Assembly (NCBI GenBank): GCA_001751225.1
Contig: MAXT01000202.1
Coordinates: 1 to 11,592, forward strand
Source: Desulfuromonadales bacterium C00003107
Lineage (GTDB): Bacteria; Desulfobacterota; Desulfuromonadia; Desulfuromonadales; Syntrophotaleaceae
Length of the DNA: 11,592 bases
Direction of reading: 5' to 3'
In this document: positions 4,331-11,592 of the stretch, in pieces
Position numbering within the stretch: position 1 is the stretch's first letter
How the letters are laid out: the number at the start of each line of letters is the position of its first letter
Program-made: the position numbers and the translations under genes
Notes under the pieces: generated by a model
Told to the model about the DNA's origin: nothing
What the model saw: the letters and a program-made list of their open reading frames with translations, nothing else
Database searches by the model: none

Positions 4331-7300
4331 TCAGAGCGTGCCGCCGGGCGGCCGATAGGAGAAATCGCGAAAACTGACGCGAAAGAAGAGACTATAGAGG
4401 ACCGGCACCAGACCCAGGGTCAGAATGGTCGCGAACAGCAGGCCAAAAATGATGGAGATCGCCATCGGTTCCCACATGGGTCCCCCACTAAACCATAGGG
4501 GCATCAGGCCGCCCATGGTGGTCGCCGTGGTGAGCAGAATCGGTCGCAGTCGGCGCTGGGCCGATTCAATGATCGCCGTGGCCGGATCCTGACCGTTCTT
4601 GTCGATCTCGATATTGATGCGATCGATAAGCACGATGGCGTTGTTGATGACGATCCCGCACAGGGCGATGATGCCTAGCAGGGTCATGAAGCCAAAGTAA
4701 GAACCGGTAACCAGCAGGCCGAAGGTGACCCCAATCATACCTAAGGGGATGGTCAACAGGATGATTAGTGGCCTGCGCAGCGAATTGAATTGACCCACCA
4801 GCAGCAGTAGGATGAGTAAGGCAGTCAAGGGCAGGTTGACCGCGATCGAGGTGTTGGCTTTACCGGAGGTTTCGATCTCCCCGCCGAGTTGGTATTTGTC
4901 GCCAAAGGGCCAGCTTTCACTCTTCTCTTTTAGCCAGGCCTCGATTTGTTGGCCGATGGCGATGGCGTTGGCACCGCTGTCGATGTTGGATTGTACAGTG
5001 ATGGTCCGGACTCGATCGCGACGGATGATTTTACCGGGCTGCCAGGCGAGGTTGATATCAGCCACCTGTTTCAAGGGCACCGATTGCCCCGTATGCTGTA
5101 CGAAGATGTTGTGGCTTTCCAGTTTGCCGATATCTTTGCGGTCGGCGGCTACGGAGCGCAGAGTGACGGGAATCAGCTCATCCTTTTCGCGATATTCGGT
5201 GGTTTGAATGCCGCTCAGGATCGTCTGTAGGGAGATGGCGATGTCGCGGCTGGTGAGGCCGGCCCGCAGAGCTCTCGGCTGGTTGATCTGAACCACCAGT
5301 TTTTTAGTGCGTGCGCCCCAGTTATCGGTGATGTTGCGGGTGCCGGGAATCTTGGCCAATCGATCCTTGGTCTGTTGTGCCAGCTCGAAAAGGCGGTCCG
5401 TATCCTTACCCGAAAGGCGCACTTCAACGGGGTTATCTATGGGCGGGCCGAGAATCAAGGGGCGAATCTTCGGCGTCAGGTCGGGAAAGTTGTTCAGGCA
5501 GTAGGCCTCCAGGCGCGGAATCATTTCTGCCAGGTTGTATTCGCGACTGGTGCCGTTGATGAGCATATAGGTGTATTCGGGGCTAGGCGCCTCGGGTGAG
5601 TAGGGCAGCATATAGCGGGGGGCGCCGGAGCCGATATAGCTGACCCAGCTAACCAGACCTTCTTTGTCCTGTTTCGGGTCAGCCATCATTTCCGCTTGCA
5701 TGAAGTTTTCGATCTGCTGCACCACTGCTTCCATGCGTTTCAACGGGGTGCCGACGGGCAGGCGTAGTTCGGCGCTGAAGATCGGCTTGTTGTGGGGCGG
5801 AAAAAACATCTTCGGTACAAACCGGAAGCTGGCCATGGCGACCACAAAGACCAGCATTATCGCGGCCAGAGTCATGAACCGGTTGCGTAGCATCAACAGT
5901 AAGAAGCCACGATAGCGGCGGTAAAAGGCGGTATTGTAGCCGCTCTTTCCAGAAGAAGGTTTGATGCGGATTAGATAGACGCAAAACAGCGGCGTCATAG
6001 TCAGAGACAGAATCCAAGAGCACAGCAAGGTGATGGTGACCACCTTGAATAGTGGTGCGGTGTATTCGCCTGTCGATGACTTGGCCAGGTAGATGGGCAG
6101 AAAGGCGGCGGCAGTGGTCAGGGAGGAGGTCAGTAGTGGAATTTTCAGTTCCTGTGCCGACTCGATGGCCGCCTCGACCGCTGATTTGCCTTCGCCCATC
6201 AGCACCATGATCGATTCGGACATGACGATGGCATTGTCGACCAACATGCCCAAGGCGATAATCATGGCCGCCAAAGACATCTGGTCGATGCCGATTCCGA
6301 GCAGGCCCATCACCAGCAAGGCCATGATCATGGCCATAGGGATCAAGCTGGATACCGCCAAGCCGGTGCGCAGGCCGAGAAACACCAGCATCACCGCCAG
6401 CACGATGACCATCGCCTGCAGCAGGTTGGTGACGAACTCATCGACCTTGCGTTTAACATGCTCGGGCTGAAAGGCGACAATGTCGAAATCGACGCCGATG
6501 GGGTAGGCCTGGCGAAAGCGTTTCAGAGATAGCTTTACTTCCTCGCCGAGGGCCAGCATGTCGCCGCCTTCCCGCAGGTTGAGGGACAGGGTTAGAGCCG
6601 GCTTGCCCTTATAGTGCACACGGCTGGTCGGCGGGTCGATATAGTGGCGGCGAATGTTGACGATATCTTCCAGATAGACGACGTCGTCGCGGCCAGGCAG
6701 GGTGATAACGGTGCGCTTGAGATCGGCTACCGAGTCGAAGTTGCCGGTCGGTTCAAGGACGATCTGCTCTCGATCAGTAAAGATTTCACCACCGGGAATG
6801 ATGATGTTGCGCGCTTCAAGAATACCTTTGAGCTGAAAGGGCGACAGGCCGAGTTCCGCAAGTCGGGCGTTTTGATACTCGACAAAGATCCGTTCCTGCT
6901 GGATGCCTTGAATGCTGACTTTGGCGATGTGCGGACTGAGCAGCAGCTCATTGCGGCAGTCGTCGGCAATCTCTTTGAGTTCCGCGTAGCTGAAATCCTC
7001 ACCGCTGATGGCGACAATGATGCCGAAGATATCACCGAATTCATCGTTGACGAAGGGGCCGACCACTTCGTCGGGCAGTTCGCCGGTGGCCCGGGTAACC
7101 TTGCGCCGCAAATCGTCCCAGATGGGCCGCATCTCTTTGTGGCGCTCAAGGATGTTGACCCAGATGATCGAAACGCCCGGCTTCGACTCACTCTCGATAT
7201 AGTCGATCTGGGGGATTTCCTGAATGACCTTTTCCAGCTTGTCGGTGACCAGCTGCTCCACCCGTTCGGGACTGGCCCCGGGGAAATAGGTCAGTACCTG

Positions 7301-7435
7301 GGCTACGCGCACCACAAAGCCAGGGTCTTCGGCGCGGGGCAGGGTAGAAAAGTGGAACAGCCCAGCCAGGGCGATGACTAGCAGGGCGACCAGGGTGACC
7401 CGGTTCTTTTCAATGGCGGAGCGGGTCAGATTCAT
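4331..7435 (-). CDS. RND-family efflux permease (HAE1/AcrB-like)
   Basis: This inner-membrane pump drives export with the ion-motive force and works with a membrane fusion protein and a TolC channel. Its 1034 residues are the usual length for AcrB relatives. TM1 is at about residues 12-30. The first porter loop carries FPGASPERVEQ (51-61). TM2-TM6 are at about 337-490, the second periplasmic loop at about 540-865, and TM8-TM12 at about 867-1018, with the RRLRPILLTTATTMGGLMPL signature at 961-980. The TM4 motif reads GMLVDNAIV, with Asp400 kept and the second relay aspartate replaced by Asn401. In TM10 the lysine position of AcrB (Lys940) is Asn931 in GIVINNAIVLID. Such variants occur in RND subfamilies, but they mean the AcrB proton relay cannot be assumed. 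The ATG at 7435 overlaps the stop of the fusion-protein gene by 4 bp (ATGA), so the two are translationally coupled. The substrate cannot be told from sequence. Confidence 0.96.
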   Translation of the reverse strand: MNLTRSAIEKNRVTLVALLVIALAGLFHFSTLPRAEDPGFVVRVAQVLTYFPGASPERVEQLVTDKLEKVIQEIPQIDYIESESKPGVSIIWVNILERHKEMRPIWDDLRRKVTRATGELPDEVVGPFVNDEFGDIFGIIVAISGEDFSYAELKEIADDCRNELLLSPHIAKVSIQGIQQERIFVEYQNARLAELGLSPFQLKGILEARNIIIPGGEIFTDREQIVLEPTGNFDSVADLKRTVITLPGRDDVVYLEDIVNIRRHYIDPPTSRVHYKGKPALTLSLNLREGGDMLALGEEVKLSLKRFRQAYPIGVDFDIVAFQPEHVKRKVDEFVTNLLQAMVIVLAVMLVFLGLRTGLAVSSLIPMAMIMALLVMGLLGIGIDQMSLAAMIIALGMLVDNAIVMSESIMVLMGEGKSAVEAAIESAQELKIPLLTSSLTTAAAFLPIYLAKSSTGEYTAPLFKVVTITLLCSWILSLTMTPLFCVYLIRIKPSSGKSGYNTAFYRRYRGFLLLMLRNRFMTLAAIMLVFVVAMASFRFVPKMFFPPHNKPIFSAELRLPVGTPLKRMEAVVQQIENFMQAEMMADPKQDKEGLVSWVSYIGSGAPRYMLPYSPEAPSPEYTYMLINGTSREYNLAEMIPRLEAYCLNNFPDLTPKIRPLILGPPIDNPVEVRLSGKDTDRLFELAQQTKDRLAKIPGTRNITDNWGARTKKLVVQINQPRALRAGLTSRDIAISLQTILSGIQTTEYREKDELIPVTLRSVAADRKDIGKLESHNIFVQHTGQSVPLKQVADINLAWQPGKIIRRDRVRTITVQSNIDSGANAIAIGQQIEAWLKEKSESWPFGDKYQLGGEIETSGKANTSIAVNLPLTALLILLLLVGQFNSLRRPLIILLTIPLGMIGVTFGLLVTGSYFGFMTLLGIIALCGIVINNAIVLIDRINIEIDKNGQDPATAIIESAQRRLRPILLTTATTMGGLMPLWFSGGPMWEPMAISIIFGLLFATILTLGLVPVLYSLFFRVSFRDFSYRPPGGTL

Positions 7436-8532
7436 GGCCGAACCTCGTTGCTGGCCAGAATCTGTACCTGCTGGCCTTCGTGGATACGGCTGATCCCGGC
7501 GGTGACGACCAGATCACTGTCTTGCAGGCCGCTGAGCACTTCCAGGCCGTCCGAAGTCAGTTCACCGACGGTGACCGCCCGCCGATGGATAATCCCCAGA
7601 CCATCCTTGGCGGATTCGACCACAAAGGCAAAACGTCCTTTACGGTCTTCGCCGATAGCCTCTGGCGCCACTAGAACTGGAGTGTCGTTACCGGTTTTAG
7701 GCAAGAGGAAAATAATAGCCGCTGCCATGCCGGGACGGATCTGCCCAGAGCTCTGCTCAAGGCGCACGGTGACTGGAAAAGTTGTTCCTTGGCCGGTGGC
7801 CGCGACGCCGACTTCGGTGACCTTGGCTGCAAACGTCCGTTCAGGCAGGGCGTCAAACACAACGCTGACCGGCATCTTCTGATTTATTTTGGTGATGAGA
7901 CTCTCCGGAACGGTACAGCCGACTTCGGTCAGTTTACCGGAGGTCAGCAGTGCCACCATCTGGCCGGCGGCAACGTTTTCGTTGACCTCAATGGGCACGC
8001 TGGCGATGGCACCGGCGCTGGGAGCGGTGAGCCGGGTGTAGCCCCGCTGGGACTGGGCCAGCTCCAGGCGGGTGTTGCTGGCCCGGACCAGCGCTTCGGT
8101 CGATTCGCTGGCAGCTCGAGCGGCGTCCAGGTCATTGCGCGAAGCGTTACGGTTTTCGTACAGTCCTCTCACCCGCTCGTAATTGGCTTCGGCGTTACGG
8201 GCCTGGGCTCGTGCGTTGGCCAAGGCCGCCTGCGCTTCCTGTACCTGTAGTCGATAGTCGGTGACATCCAGGCGGGCGATCAGTTGACCCTGTTTGACCT
8301 TATCCCCAACCTGAACCGCCAATTCTTTCACCGCACCGGGAACACGAAAGCTGAGCCGTGACTCCACACCCGCCTGGGCCATGCCGGAAAAGGTCCGTTT
8401 CAGCTGGCTGCTGCCCGGCTTGACCTTCTGGTAACGAATTGGTCGAATCAGCTCCGGTTGTGGAGCAGGTTCACTTCCGCAGGCGAGCAGACATAAAGGC
8501 AACAGTAACACCAGCAGGGTGCGGTTTAGCAT
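7432..8532 (-). CDS. RND efflux membrane fusion protein, lipoprotein (HlyD/AcrA family)
   Basis: This periplasmic adaptor joins the RND permease to the outer-membrane channel. With the start at 8532 it has 366 residues and begins with a lipoprotein signal, a hydrophobic run ending in the lipobox LLAC (Cys18) followed by Gly-Ser, so it should be lipid-anchored like AcrA. A beta-barrel/lipoyl half is at about 35-90 (GAVKELAVQVGDKVKQGQL, the lipoyl-like strand and turn). A helical hairpin rich in Ala, Arg, Glu and Gln is at about 95-165, the second lipoyl half is around YTRLTAPSAGAI, and beta-barrel and membrane-proximal domains follow. An in-frame ATG at 8601 would add 23 residues that destroy the signal peptide arrangement and lacks a good binding site, whereas AAGGAGA at 8541-8547 sits 8 nt before the chosen ATG. 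The stop overlaps the permease start. Function by family is clear; the substrate is unknown. Confidence 0.95.
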   Translation of the reverse strand: MLNRTLLVLLLPLCLLACGSEPAPQPELIRPIRYQKVKPGSSQLKRTFSGMAQAGVESRLSFRVPGAVKELAVQVGDKVKQGQLIARLDVTDYRLQVQEAQAALANARAQARNAEANYERVRGLYENRNASRNDLDAARAASESTEALVRASNTRLELAQSQRGYTRLTAPSAGAIASVPIEVNENVAAGQMVALLTSGKLTEVGCTVPESLITKINQKMPVSVVFDALPERTFAAKVTEVGVAATGQGTTFPVTVRLEQSSGQIRPGMAAAIIFLLPKTGNDTPVLVAPEAIGEDRKGRFAFVVESAKDGLGIIHRRAVTVGELTSDGLEVLSGLQDSDLVVTAGISRIHEGQQVQILASNEVRP

Positions 8533-8656
8533 GTGGTATCTCTCCTTGATGGCCATTATGGCTTGGCGGCCAAAATAAAACCGAAAATCCAGATCGGTCA
8601 AATGTGTTTAGCCGGGTCGCGAACCATCCGACAGTTTCTTTATTAAACTCGGCAGC
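8533..8656 (-). other. 124-bp spacer between the outer-membrane factor and fusion-protein genes
   Basis: Apart from the ribosome binding site described separately, the spacer holds no strong hairpin with a U tract, so read-through from the upstream TolC-family gene is likely. A short imperfect inverted repeat (TGGCC...GGCCA, about 8551-8573) sits just upstream of the binding site. No clear promoter was identified, although a secondary promoter cannot be excluded. Confidence 0.4.
8541..8547 (-). promoter_or_regulatory. Ribosome binding site fixing the fusion-protein start
   Basis: On the minus strand AAGGAGA lies 8 nt before the ATG at 8532-8530. It decides between this start, which yields a clean lipoprotein signal, and the longer in-frame ATG at 8601. 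Confidence 0.8.
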
Positions 8657-11095
8657 TCAGGGGGCGGCAGTGACGTCCTGACGCCAGAATTCTTCCAGGC
8701 GGCCGAACCAGTCTTCCCGTTGTTGAGGGCCAAGGAAAAAGTCGAAACGACCGACGGCACGTTGTGTTTCCATCAGATCGATAAAAAAGTCGTAGACAGA
8801 GCTAGCCGCCACGCTGTCGGCGACCAGGGCCGCATTCTGGGCATCAATCAGTTCGATAATCGATACCAGGCCGCGGGAATAGGCATCCGTCACCAGGTCG
8901 AGATTCTTACGGGCGGCGGTAGCTCCCTGAGCCGACAGGCGGATGATGGTCTGAGAAGCTCGTGCTCGTTGCAAGGCCGAGCGGATGCGTTGTTCAAAGC
9001 GATCGGACAATGCCCGGCGCTCGATGTGCAGCTGTGCCAACTCTTCGTTGGCTTGCTCTAGCTCGGCACTACGGGCACCGCCGGTGAACAGGGGTAGGGC
9101 CAGATTGAGGCCGACGCTCCAATCCGTATCGTTGGACTGGGGGATCTCGATGGGCAGGCTGCCTGTGAAGGGAGGGTCAACACCTGCACCTCCTTCGTAG
9201 AAATGTTGGCTAAGGCCAGCGCGCAGGGATACTTCAGGGGTCCAAAAAGAACGACGGGCTGCCAGTCGGATACGTTCCTGAGCGTCGATGGCCCGGTCGA
9301 TACGCTGCAGCTCCGGTATCTCGGCCAGGCCTTCCTGGACCATAAAATCACGATAACGGGCAAAGGCAGTGGGGGTGGCCAGATAGGGTTCGAGTCGTTG
9401 ATTGGAAACAAGAAACTCAGGAGCACCTAGATCGACTTCTGCTGTGGTGAAGGTCTCCTCTGCTGGACGTTGCAGTAGCCGGTTGAGGTCCAGTTCGGCC
9501 AGGGAACGTTGGGTGGCCGCTTGCACGACTGTTTTGCGGTCCCGTGCCAGTTGGCTCTCCCAGCGATAGACTTCAGCAGGCCCACTAAAGCCCACGGTTT
9601 GGCGTCGACGGGCCAAATTCAGGTTGGAACGGGTCTCAAGTAGATTATTTTTCTGGATGGTTTGCAGGGTCTTGGCGCGCAGCACAGTGAGATAGCCGGC
9701 TGCCGCAGCCTGGACGATGTCGAGTCGCAGTTGGCGGCGTTCCTGCAGCCTGGCCTCCTGCTGTTGCCCCTGCACGTCATAATTAGTCCGCCGTGATTCG
9801 GAATAGAGGGACTGTTCCAATACCAGAGATCCGGTCATCGACCGTTCGGTTCGGCTGCCGAAGCTGGCTTCGGCCCGATCTTCATCTATTAGCAAACCGT
9901 TGGCGACAGCGGTCAGTTGAGGTAGTAGGGCTGCCCGGGCTTTACGTACCTCGGCTTCACCGGCGGCGATGCGGCGGTCGGATGCTGCAAGGTCGAGATT
10001 GATGTTCAGAGCCTCTTTGACGGTTTCAGCCAGAGTCAATTGCCGGGTCGGAACATTGGCTTCTTCGGCTATCAGTTCCGCTTCGATAAGTTGTTCCCAG
10101 GTCGGGGAAAACCCAATGGCCCGAGCGGTGCGCATGTTGATACTAACTTTGTCTTCTTGGGAGAAAAAGACCGGCAGCTCGCCAGGGTCTTTGCCCAACA
10201 GAATGCTCTGTATAGTCAGGGCGGTACGACGAGCCAGTCGCGGAAAATCCGACTTTGGCGCTGCGCCTGCCAAAATGCCCTGTACTACTTCGCTGTGACC
10301 AAAATAGGAAAAGCTTGGCACCCTTCGAGATTTGAGCCCCTCTATCAAAATCTGAAGTTCTGCCTGCGGCAGCCGCAACAGGGGAGTTACATAAACCGCG
10401 TCGATATCCTTCGGTAGGGCCGCAAGGGCTGCTTCCGCCGAACTATCGACGGCGATAGCGGTCATTGCGATGCCTTTGCTGGCCAAATTGACAGCCAGTT
10501 CATCTGTGAGGGCAGGAATGAAGTCGAGGTAAGGGCGGTTGGTTAACACCGCCAATCGTTGGAATGGCAGAAGTTCTCCGAATGCCTGCATATCCCGGCG
10601 GATCGGTGAGGGGGAGGCAAGGTAGCTGAAATTGTGAACTCCACTGGCCGATTGCAGCAGTGGATAATCCTGGATTTCACGGTCGACAGTGAAGGGCGCT
10701 ACCGTCGGTTTGGGCAGCGGGCCACGGTGGGCCAGGTCGTGGGAGGTCAGGACGCCGATGGCTAACAGCAGATCGACGTCTGGGTCTTGCAATAGTTGGT
10801 CGGCTGCCAGTTTAACTCCCGCCATGGTCCAGTCGCTGGTGATGGTTTTGTCGGCAGGAAAGCTGATTGGGAATTCGCCACTGGTCAGGGCGACAACCTC
10901 TGTCTTGAACAGTTCCAGTAGCGGCTCGTTTCCGGCCCAGGGGCCATCCATGATTACACCGATACGCAGAGGAGCGGCTGCAGCCGGAAGGGCCATAAGT
11001 AGCAGGGTCAGTAGCCAGACTGCCAGGCAGATCATGCGACCCGGATGAGTCAAAAGGTTCGGCGCGGCCGTATTGCGCATCGGGAGGCTGGCCAT
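8657..11095 (-). CDS. Fusion: periplasmic-binding-protein-like domain plus TolC-family outer-membrane factor
   Basis: One 812-residue polypeptide contains two modules. Residues 1-41 form a signal peptide: a basic N-terminus, a hydrophobic core around LAVWLLTLLLMALP, and a probable cut after AAA. Residues about 42-345 read as an ABC-transporter substrate-binding-like domain of the PF04392 kind. It opens with a LRIGVIMDGP strand, has a middle AVYVTPLL strand, and ends with ARRTALTIQSILLGKDPGELPV-type and NMRTARAIGFSP segments, close to the end of that family. Residues about 351-790 are a TolC/OEP domain with two repeats. The first starts at LTLAETVKEALNINLDL, and the second contains the SLRAGLS strand and LNLALPLFTGGARSAELEQA. 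Typical OMFs are about 420-490 residues, so the N-terminal module is an extra. The start at 11095 has AAGGA at 11105-11109 with a 9-nt spacing; a longer in-frame ATG at 11197 would hide the signal peptide. The gene heads the efflux operon, so the channel very probably serves the downstream fusion protein and permease. A role of the extra domain in substrate capture or sensing is inference. Confidence 0.93.
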   Translation of the reverse strand: MASLPMRNTAAPNLLTHPGRMICLAVWLLTLLLMALPAAAAPLRIGVIMDGPWAGNEPLLELFKTEVVALTSGEFPISFPADKTITSDWTMAGVKLAADQLLQDPDVDLLLAIGVLTSHDLAHRGPLPKPTVAPFTVDREIQDYPLLQSASGVHNFSYLASPSPIRRDMQAFGELLPFQRLAVLTNRPYLDFIPALTDELAVNLASKGIAMTAIAVDSSAEAALAALPKDIDAVYVTPLLRLPQAELQILIEGLKSRRVPSFSYFGHSEVVQGILAGAAPKSDFPRLARRTALTIQSILLGKDPGELPVFFSQEDKVSINMRTARAIGFSPTWEQLIEAELIAEEANVPTRQLTLAETVKEALNINLDLAASDRRIAAGEAEVRKARAALLPQLTAVANGLLIDEDRAEASFGSRTERSMTGSLVLEQSLYSESRRTNYDVQGQQQEARLQERRQLRLDIVQAAAAGYLTVLRAKTLQTIQKNNLLETRSNLNLARRRQTVGFSGPAEVYRWESQLARDRKTVVQAATQRSLAELDLNRLLQRPAEETFTTAEVDLGAPEFLVSNQRLEPYLATPTAFARYRDFMVQEGLAEIPELQRIDRAIDAQERIRLAARRSFWTPEVSLRAGLSQHFYEGGAGVDPPFTGSLPIEIPQSNDTDWSVGLNLALPLFTGGARSAELEQANEELAQLHIERRALSDRFEQRIRSALQRARASQTIIRLSAQGATAARKNLDLVTDAYSRGLVSIIELIDAQNAALVADSVAASSVYDFFIDLMETQRAVGRFDFFLGPQQREDWFGRLEEFWRQDVTAAP

Positions 11096-11191: not shown

Positions 11192-11340
11192 AAACATATA
11201 GGATGGCTAAGCAAAGATTTCGTCCTACAAGGCCTGGTGTTTTTTTAGGGGTGAAGGCATACATCTCGTATGTCGAGGTCCTGAAAAAAACGCCGTAACG
11301 CCGTAGAGCGGACTTTTTGCGACGCCATCAATAAAAAGAA

Positions 11341-11592
11341 TCAGTGCAGAGCCTTTTCCATCAATTCCAGAAACTGTTTAAACTCGCCATCGGTTAGCCG
11401 CCGATGGATACCGTCCACGTATTCGCGTCGTGAGTCCTCGTAGGCTTCGGCAATCTGTTTCCCGGATTCCGTCAGGTAGATAAAAAACCCCCGCCGGTCA
11501 TTGGTCGACTGTTTCTTGTAGACATAGCCCTGATCGATCAACTTGTGGATAATTGAGGTGACGGCCGGTTTGCTGAGTTTCAGGGCCTGGGC
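11341..11592 (-). CDS. MarR-family transcriptional regulator, C-terminal part (5' end outside window)
   Basis: The frame is open from the window edge at 11592 to a stop at 11343-11341, giving 83 codons of the C-terminal part. It opens with the winged helix-turn-helix: the recognition helix reads LSKPAVTSIIHKLIDQGYV, and the wing carries the typical DRRGFFIYLTESG. A C-terminal dimerisation helix containing LTDGEFKQFLELMEKAL follows. This order (recognition helix, D-R-R-G wing, L-T-x-x-G, long helix) is diagnostic of MarR. Proteins of this family are usually dimeric repressors released by small aromatic or phenolic ligands and often sit beside the efflux operon they control. The gene lies directly upstream of the pump genes on the same strand, so control of the pump and of itself is a reasonable inference. 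The internal ATG at 11541 is not a start, since the helix-turn-helix is already in progress before it. Confidence 0.9.
   Translation of the reverse strand, partial: AQALKLSKPAVTSIIHKLIDQGYVYKKQSTNDRRGFFIYLTESGKQIAEAYEDSRREYVDGIHRRLTDGEFKQFLELMEKALH

Follow-up and report, generated by a model that had tools for sequence, protein, structure and literature searches.

Outer-membrane factors (OMFs) are usually regarded as passive exit ducts. One study of mutants has suggested, nonetheless, that TolC may vet the substrates that pass through it (PMC7396618). Midway up the periplasmic barrel of OMFs runs an equatorial belt, to which the first helix (H1) contributes (PMC8277102). This belt matters both for channel function and for partner choice (PMC8277102; PMC7396618). 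It is this equatorial domain that decides which pump and adaptor are engaged, and TolC mutations in its vicinity alter substrate specificity (PMC7396618). A survey that covered 76 families of outer-membrane pores gives OMFs a length of 472 +/- 30 residues and describes fusions of pores to other domains as rare (PMC4827864). The second group of proteins relevant here comprises periplasmic solute-binding proteins (SBPs) of Pfam family PF04392, of which the solved relatives of the domain described below bind phenylalanine, tyrosine and tryptophan (PMC6816091). In the literature that we searched, most of it open-access, no description of an SBP-OMF fusion was found, although the architecture may be recorded in automatic domain databases.

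A TolC-type channel with an N-terminal solute-binding domain

The DNA analysed here, referred to as the window, is a stretch of 11,592 nucleotides from Desulfuromonadales bacterium C00003107. On its minus strand, positions 8660-11095 translate into 812 residues without a stop, within a frame of 849 residues from stop to stop; an alternative ATG farther upstream, at position 11197, would yield a protein of 846 residues. The coordinates and domain bounds given for this gene in an earlier note, made from the sequence alone, are correct, and we add the strand, which the note had left out. The features of the window are as follows:

8657..11095, minus strand, SBP-TolC fusion gene encoding 812 residues, with the stop codon at 8657-8659
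10973..11095, minus strand, residues 1-41, signal-peptide-like N-terminal stretch, judged by eye from a hydrophobic run ending in AAA
10061..10972, minus strand, residues 42-345, PF04392-type periplasmic solute-binding (SBP) domain, placed by profile matches
9998..10081, minus strand, residues 339-366, stretch linking the final conserved alanine of the SBP domain with the asparagine conserved in the first TolC helix
8660..10045, minus strand, residues 351-812, complete TolC/OMF domain, with OEP repeats at 9473-10033 and 8753-9343
7432..8601, minus strand, periplasmic adaptor (RND_mfp, TIGR01730, 234.7 bits against a cut-off of 94.9)
4331..7435, minus strand, RND permease (PF00873, E = 1.2e-159), overlapping the adaptor gene by 4 bases
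11341..11592, minus strand, MarR-family regulator, partial at the contig end
3-3853, plus strand, ATP-synthase subunits of an alternate F1F0 ATPase (N-ATPase type)

By eye, no lipobox cysteine was seen at the end of residues 1-41. The whole protein matches PF02321 (OEP) with an E-value of 1.1e-39 over two stretches (window 8753-9343 and 9473-10033), and residues 351-812 searched alone match it with 1.3e-40, both OEP repeats being present. The channel half is an OMF by Pfam that lies outside the NCBI subfamily TIGR01844 (type_I_sec_TolC), against which it scores 113.5 bits, below the cut-off of 225.15.

The earlier note had likened residues 42-345 to periplasmic substrate-binding proteins and proposed searching them separately. 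Their sole Pfam match is PF04392 (E = 3.5e-4), and the score of 20.3 bits falls below the gathering score of 25.9, as does that of the whole protein (17.2 bits); in a PF04392 search of the window's own genome, the fusion locus was again below the cut-off. By contrast with this sub-threshold match, a profile built from 19 fused SBP domains retrieved three solved SBPs from the PDB, namely, 3lkv (E = 4.8e-11), 6hni (2.8e-6) and 3lft (1.2e-5). Searched individually, 9 of the 19 fused domains match PF04392 at E <= 1e-3 (the best at 1.6e-10) and 10 do not, and of the relatives from the same clade that are fused to a BON domain, two (L146 and L148) exceed Pfam's PF04392 cut-off and one (L149) stays under it. 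Taken alone, the window protein would make a weak case for an SBP domain; together with its relatives the case appears good, with most of the doubt removed. The Pfam and profile matches of the two halves bear out the note's reading of a PF04392-like domain and a two-repeat TolC domain in a single frame, and the fusion of the two is confirmed as real.

Occurrence and gene neighbourhoods of the fusion

The genome that contains the window is fragmented (423 contigs, 86.83% complete, 7.31% contamination), a state in which an assembly or sequencing error might join two genes. However, a scan of public genome contigs yielded five loci with single-frame relatives at 91, 85, 46 and 46% identity, the first from the Desulfuromonadales, the second represented by two contigs of one metagenome-assembled genome (MAG), and the last two from Acidobacteria-labelled MAGs (L003 and L004). 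The survey was extended to the window's phylum (297 genomes), its order (98 genomes), the phylum of L003 (247 genomes) and plasmid records. Within the window's phylum, the SBP domain was matched in 34/297 genomes, with the fusion in 14 and unfused relatives in the remainder; within the order, the SBP profile matched 35/98 genomes, and 16 carry the fusion; within the family, the fusion is present in 12 of 14 genomes, and the other two are 67% and 78% complete. In the phylum of L003, 21/247 genomes match and 15/247 carry the fusion. Two plasmid records match as well: Sulfuricurvum pSULKU01 encodes a fusion, and in the Aureimonas record a TolC part is absent from the annotation of the SBP match.

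The resulting alignment comprises 47 single-frame fusions from 46 genomes or records. Two duplicates, L001 (the very contig of L098) and L151 (the same as L003), were left out, L002 (identical with the contig of L113, judging by length and match position) and L005 were not entered, and L051, with its halves in separate frames, and the partial L063 were excluded. Because these 47 fusions include three in single-contig genomes (G318, G299 and G308, all in the window's order), a misassembly can be dismissed, and we consider the probability of an artefact negligible. The earlier note had also pointed out that the fusion would be undermined by related genomes in which the two parts are separate genes. 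To look for these, we searched the genomes of the order with the TolC half (E <= 1e-20); it was found in 16/98 genomes, the identical 16, every time in the fusion frame (in one of them, G353, the fusion is split over two contigs), and no separate TolC half outside the fusion turned up in the 98 genomes at this threshold. The sole split copy that we saw, L051, looks broken: in-frame stops interrupt its halves and the region between them, and the SBP and TolC parts lie in separate frames. Its genome, G186, has a further copy, L053, that is open. The broken copy adjoins adaptor and RND genes that are apparently open. Given the single-frame relatives, the single-contig genomes and the lack of a detached TolC half in the order, both the artefact and the split-gene readings were rejected. 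The Sulfuricurvum kujiense plasmid protein (L038 7902-10313; NC_014754.1) illustrates how annotation hides the architecture: this SBP-TolC fusion carries no label beyond 'ABC transporter substrate binding protein'.

In the window, the RND permease, the adaptor and the OMF together make up the gene set of an RND tripartite exporter. Among the scanned genes of the window there is neither a permease nor an ATPase of an ABC importer, and both this absence and the presence of RND genes next to the fusion (the PF00873 permease and the RND_mfp adaptor) agree with what had been noted before. In a search of up to 6 kb around the fusions, 41/47 loci proved to have a same-strand adaptor gene no more than 4 kb away; an RND permease is present as well at 40 of these, and an ABC-2 exporter at the remaining one (L038). 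The conjecture that the architecture always neighbours RND genes, for which the earlier note had suggested a survey, accordingly holds for 40/47 fusions and fails for Sulfuricurvum pSULKU01, in which the fusion pairs with an adaptor and an ABC-2 exporter; RND pumps as the only partner were rejected on account of this locus. At the six loci without an adaptor match (L041, L042, L050, L052, L113 and L140), the contig ends at most 601 bases away on one side, and in the genome of L050 another contig, L063, terminates in an adaptor, an RND gene and the beginning of an SBP domain. The order fusion-adaptor-transporter is seen at 34 loci, and the RND gene lies upstream of the fusion at 7. The RND permeases linked to fusions are diverse, with E-values against the permease of the window from 0 to about 1e-176.

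Other neighbours recur to various extents. Counting the window itself, 11/12 fusion loci in its family have a MarR homologue. The N-ATPase subunits c, b, alpha and gamma of the window exceed their NCBIfam cut-offs (TIGR03322, TIGR03321, TIGR03324 and TIGR03323, respectively), whereas subunit a, clipped by the contig start, is below that of TIGR03306; an N-ATPase alpha-type gene lies near the fusion at nine further loci. A potassium-channel-like gene accompanies the pump genes at 11/47 fusion loci (L040, L045, L048, L049, L050, L052, L055, L109, L110, L136 and L138), directly adjoining them with no intervening gene in eight; the ten proteins scanned contain PF07885, with filter-like motifs such as TLGYGD, TLGFGD, TVGYGD and similar. 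In L048 (7854-11241), the fusion is followed by genes for an NhaA-type antiporter (PF06965) and PqiA (PF04403), with the channel-like gene between them. Within the window's phylum, channel genes occur in 11/14 genomes with the fusion versus 38/283 others, counts uncorrected for relatedness. However, when 30 channel loci of the phylum were examined, a pump component was present in the flank of 7, of which only 2 were fusions. A fusion-specific channel-like neighbour was consequently rejected; the link of the channel is with efflux genes more broadly.

Constraint on the fused domain and its relatives

Conservation of the SBP part approaches that of the channel: across the 47 fusions, the mean relative entropy is 1.89 for the SBP part versus 2.03 for the TolC part, and the mean pairwise identity 0.350 versus 0.402. 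Pairwise identities of the two parts correlate at 0.90 (1081 pairs), as expected from shared descent, which is no proof of interaction. Estimates of dN/dS by the NG86 method range from 0.08 to 0.20 for the SBP part (ten pairs) and from 0.06 to 0.19 for the TolC part (nine pairs, the tenth being saturated), and both parts are under purifying selection. Constraint on the SBP part is somewhat weaker than on the TolC part in six of the nine comparable pairs, but not in window-L098, window-L113 and L098-L113, which involve the closest relatives of the window and their like, and possibly also L099-L100. In the comparison of the window with L098, dS reaches 0.77 in the SBP part but 0.32, less than half as much, in the TolC part, perhaps owing to recombination. 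Several residues of the SBP domain are invariant, including D50 (44/44 rows that cover it), G114, P130, R289 and N320 (47/47 each), and others nearly so (K129 in 45, N155 in 44 and Y158 in 42 of the 47 fusions).

These values bear on the suggestion that the domain might be a degenerate scaffold or a functionless passenger. The sub-threshold PF04392 score of the window's own domain and the in-frame stops between and within the halves of L051 would fit such decay; against it weigh a dN/dS of 0.08-0.20, conservation almost as strong as the channel's and the retention of the SBP domain in all 16 of the 98 order genomes that have the TolC half. A degenerate scaffold, which the earlier note had entertained, is thus unlikely, and loss of all function very improbable.

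The relationships among the SBP domains were explored in an unrooted tree of 78 domains, built by a quick method; seven rows were left off, three as duplicates (L065, L068 and L069, of L030, L033 and L034, respectively) and four as partial or short (L179, L004, L050 and L113). A long branch (SH-aLRT 100) separates 44 fused and 3 BON-fused domains from 18 stand-alone sensor-like and 13 importer-like domains. The sensor-like and importer-like rows lie together across this branch, and a sister relation of the fused clade to the sensor-like group is not supported. The BON-fused proteins, found in the phylum of L003 (L146, L148 and L149), have an SBP domain inside the fused clade but a BON domain at the C-terminus, where the fusions have the TolC part, and on their contigs (4.1-6.9 kb) there are no RND or adaptor matches. 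Since they are nested among the TolC fusions, so that the label 'fusion' requires 2 changes on the tree, either a BON protein acquired its SBP domain from the channel or there was more than one origin of the fusion.

By profile score, the closest unfused relatives are stand-alone PF04392-like proteins with an EGGP...GTWAGQD pattern: the fused-domain profile matches 18 of these stand-alone relatives with E-values of 2e-17 to 5e-34, versus 1e-4 to 4e-16 for 20 importer-like hits (duplicates included). They share the GGP-like first loop and the Trp at position 89 with the fused domains, but measure about 370-410 residues and have no TolC part. Among eight stand-alone loci inspected for selected genes, four (L039, L056, L061 and L067) lie by histidine-kinase or SpoIIE genes; three (L054, L058 and L060) have a protein of 700-800 residues with an MFS domain nearby, its gene adjoining the SBP gene at two of these loci and lying two genes off at one; and the neighbourhood of L057 was uninformative. 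The histidine-kinase and SpoIIE neighbours, taken with the profile scores, may point to sensing, which we regard as a fair lead, not a result. In L111 and L112, frames of 750-751 residues contain two PF04392-type domains in tandem.

Possible roles of the fused domain

In profile alignments, the solved binders 3lkv, 6hni and 3lft contain an Asp-Asn motif in the form of IDN, TDN and IDN, respectively, which we take to touch the ligand in the solved amino-acid binders. This motif falls, by the same alignments, in the loop that carries ligand contacts, among them Val-235/Pro-236 of CD0873 (PMC6816091). In the fusions, the residue after the conserved Pro-238 (position 239) is Leu in 43/47, and an Asp occurs anywhere in 238-243 in 7/47. 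As judged from these positions, the fused domain likely has another ligand or another binding mode, or binds nothing small. The equivalent of the Glu/Ala specificity position of CD0873/VC_1101, at about residue 266, is Gly in 40/47 fusions; we dropped this as an argument against amino-acid binding because Ala occupies that position in two of the three solved relatives (PMC6816091).

The SBP domain ends right before H1, the first TolC helix, and the distance from A339, its last conserved alanine, to N366 in that helix is 26-28 residues in 46/47 fusions. Because a connection of near-constant length enters the first TolC helix directly, we infer that the three SBP domains of a trimeric channel would hang on its outside at the height of the equatorial belt, coupled stiffly to the barrel. 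The ligand of each domain would be a small molecule, either distinct from the aromatic amino acids of the solved relatives or bound in a different manner, and closing of the clamshell could change the belt and thereby alter adaptor recruitment or channel opening. Such a ligand-responsive exit duct, with a putative sensing domain at the equatorial belt, is the reading that we prefer, with a probability of roughly 0.4 that takes in the presumed ligand, position and coupling. It draws on the 47 fusions, the adaptor and transporter genes near 41/47 of them, the conservation of the SBP domain, the 26-28-residue connection, the kinship by profile score with stand-alone proteins of which some lie by sensor-type genes, and the part that the equatorial domain plays in pump and adaptor choice. 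Weighing against it are the MFS-type genes at three stand-alone loci, the tree, in which the fused clade is not sister to the sensor-like group, and strong conservation, which also fits protein docking. A more general version, in which a periplasmic clamshell on each protomer of a ligand-gated OMF would set channel recruitment or opening whichever the pump, RND or ABC-2, appears possible but more doubtful.

Docking without a ligand ranks next, being somewhat less probable than regulation or recruitment by a ligand. The SBP fold would then serve as a spacer or hold on to the adaptor, the peptidoglycan or parts of the outer membrane and steady the assembled pump. The replacement of the solved binders' Asp-Asn motif (Leu at 239 in 43/47, Asp in 238-243 in 7/47) is consistent with this idea, as are the adaptor gene beside 41/47 fusions and the two adjacent arginines, R289 being invariant in the fusions (47/47) but Arg in only 16/38 unfused or BON-fused rows, and R290 being Arg in 41/47. 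Conservation is not confined to one surface patch, however, but is also found around the expected cleft, placed by motif (D50, G114 and N155-Y158), which is less readily explained by docking. Capture of substrate, proposed in the earlier note as one possible role, is the least likely of these three. A solute-binding fold in constant association with exporters would suit a domain that picks up the pump's substrate in the periplasm and passes it to the pump or the channel. Yet the domain is attached where the OMF begins, a part that the topology places in the equatorial belt, on the outer side of an unbroken barrel (PMC8277102) and presumably far from the inner-membrane entry of the RND pump, which makes capture geometrically weaker. 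Moreover, the partners are RND pumps of diverse sequence and an ABC-2 exporter, so that a single substrate path is not implied.

Collectively, our results show that the window protein is an OMF of the TolC kind with an N-terminal PF04392-family domain, and that it belongs to a stable family serving tripartite exporters. The architecture recurs in distantly related bacteria and suggests an exit channel with its own sensor or docking module. A natural family of ducts with a conserved SBP domain would make the question of whether TolC vets substrates directly testable, and, should the ligand-responsive reading prove true, there would be a class of tripartite exporters in which the exit duct acts as a receptor. 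Among outer-membrane pore proteins, rare fusions to extra domains do exist, for instance, to an N-terminal SLH domain or to TPRs, but of those described in section 17 of the survey none is an OMF and none has an SBP domain (PMC4827864). The fused domain resembles the PF04392 ABC_sub_bind/TrpX-type SBPs (3lkv, 3lft and 6hni, the latter being CD0873) in a profile match over ~240 residues and in the C-terminal N-x-x-T/A-A motif; it differs from them in its covalent attachment to an OMF, with no importer in the window, and in the loss of the Asp-Asn motif of the solved binders, and its membership of the TrpX importer group appears doubtful. With the TolC/OMF family (PF02321; TCDB 1.B.17), the fusion shares the two OEP repeats and a gene that adjoins those of the adaptor and the RND permease, and it departs from that family in its length of 812 residues, to which an added N-terminal domain contributes 300.
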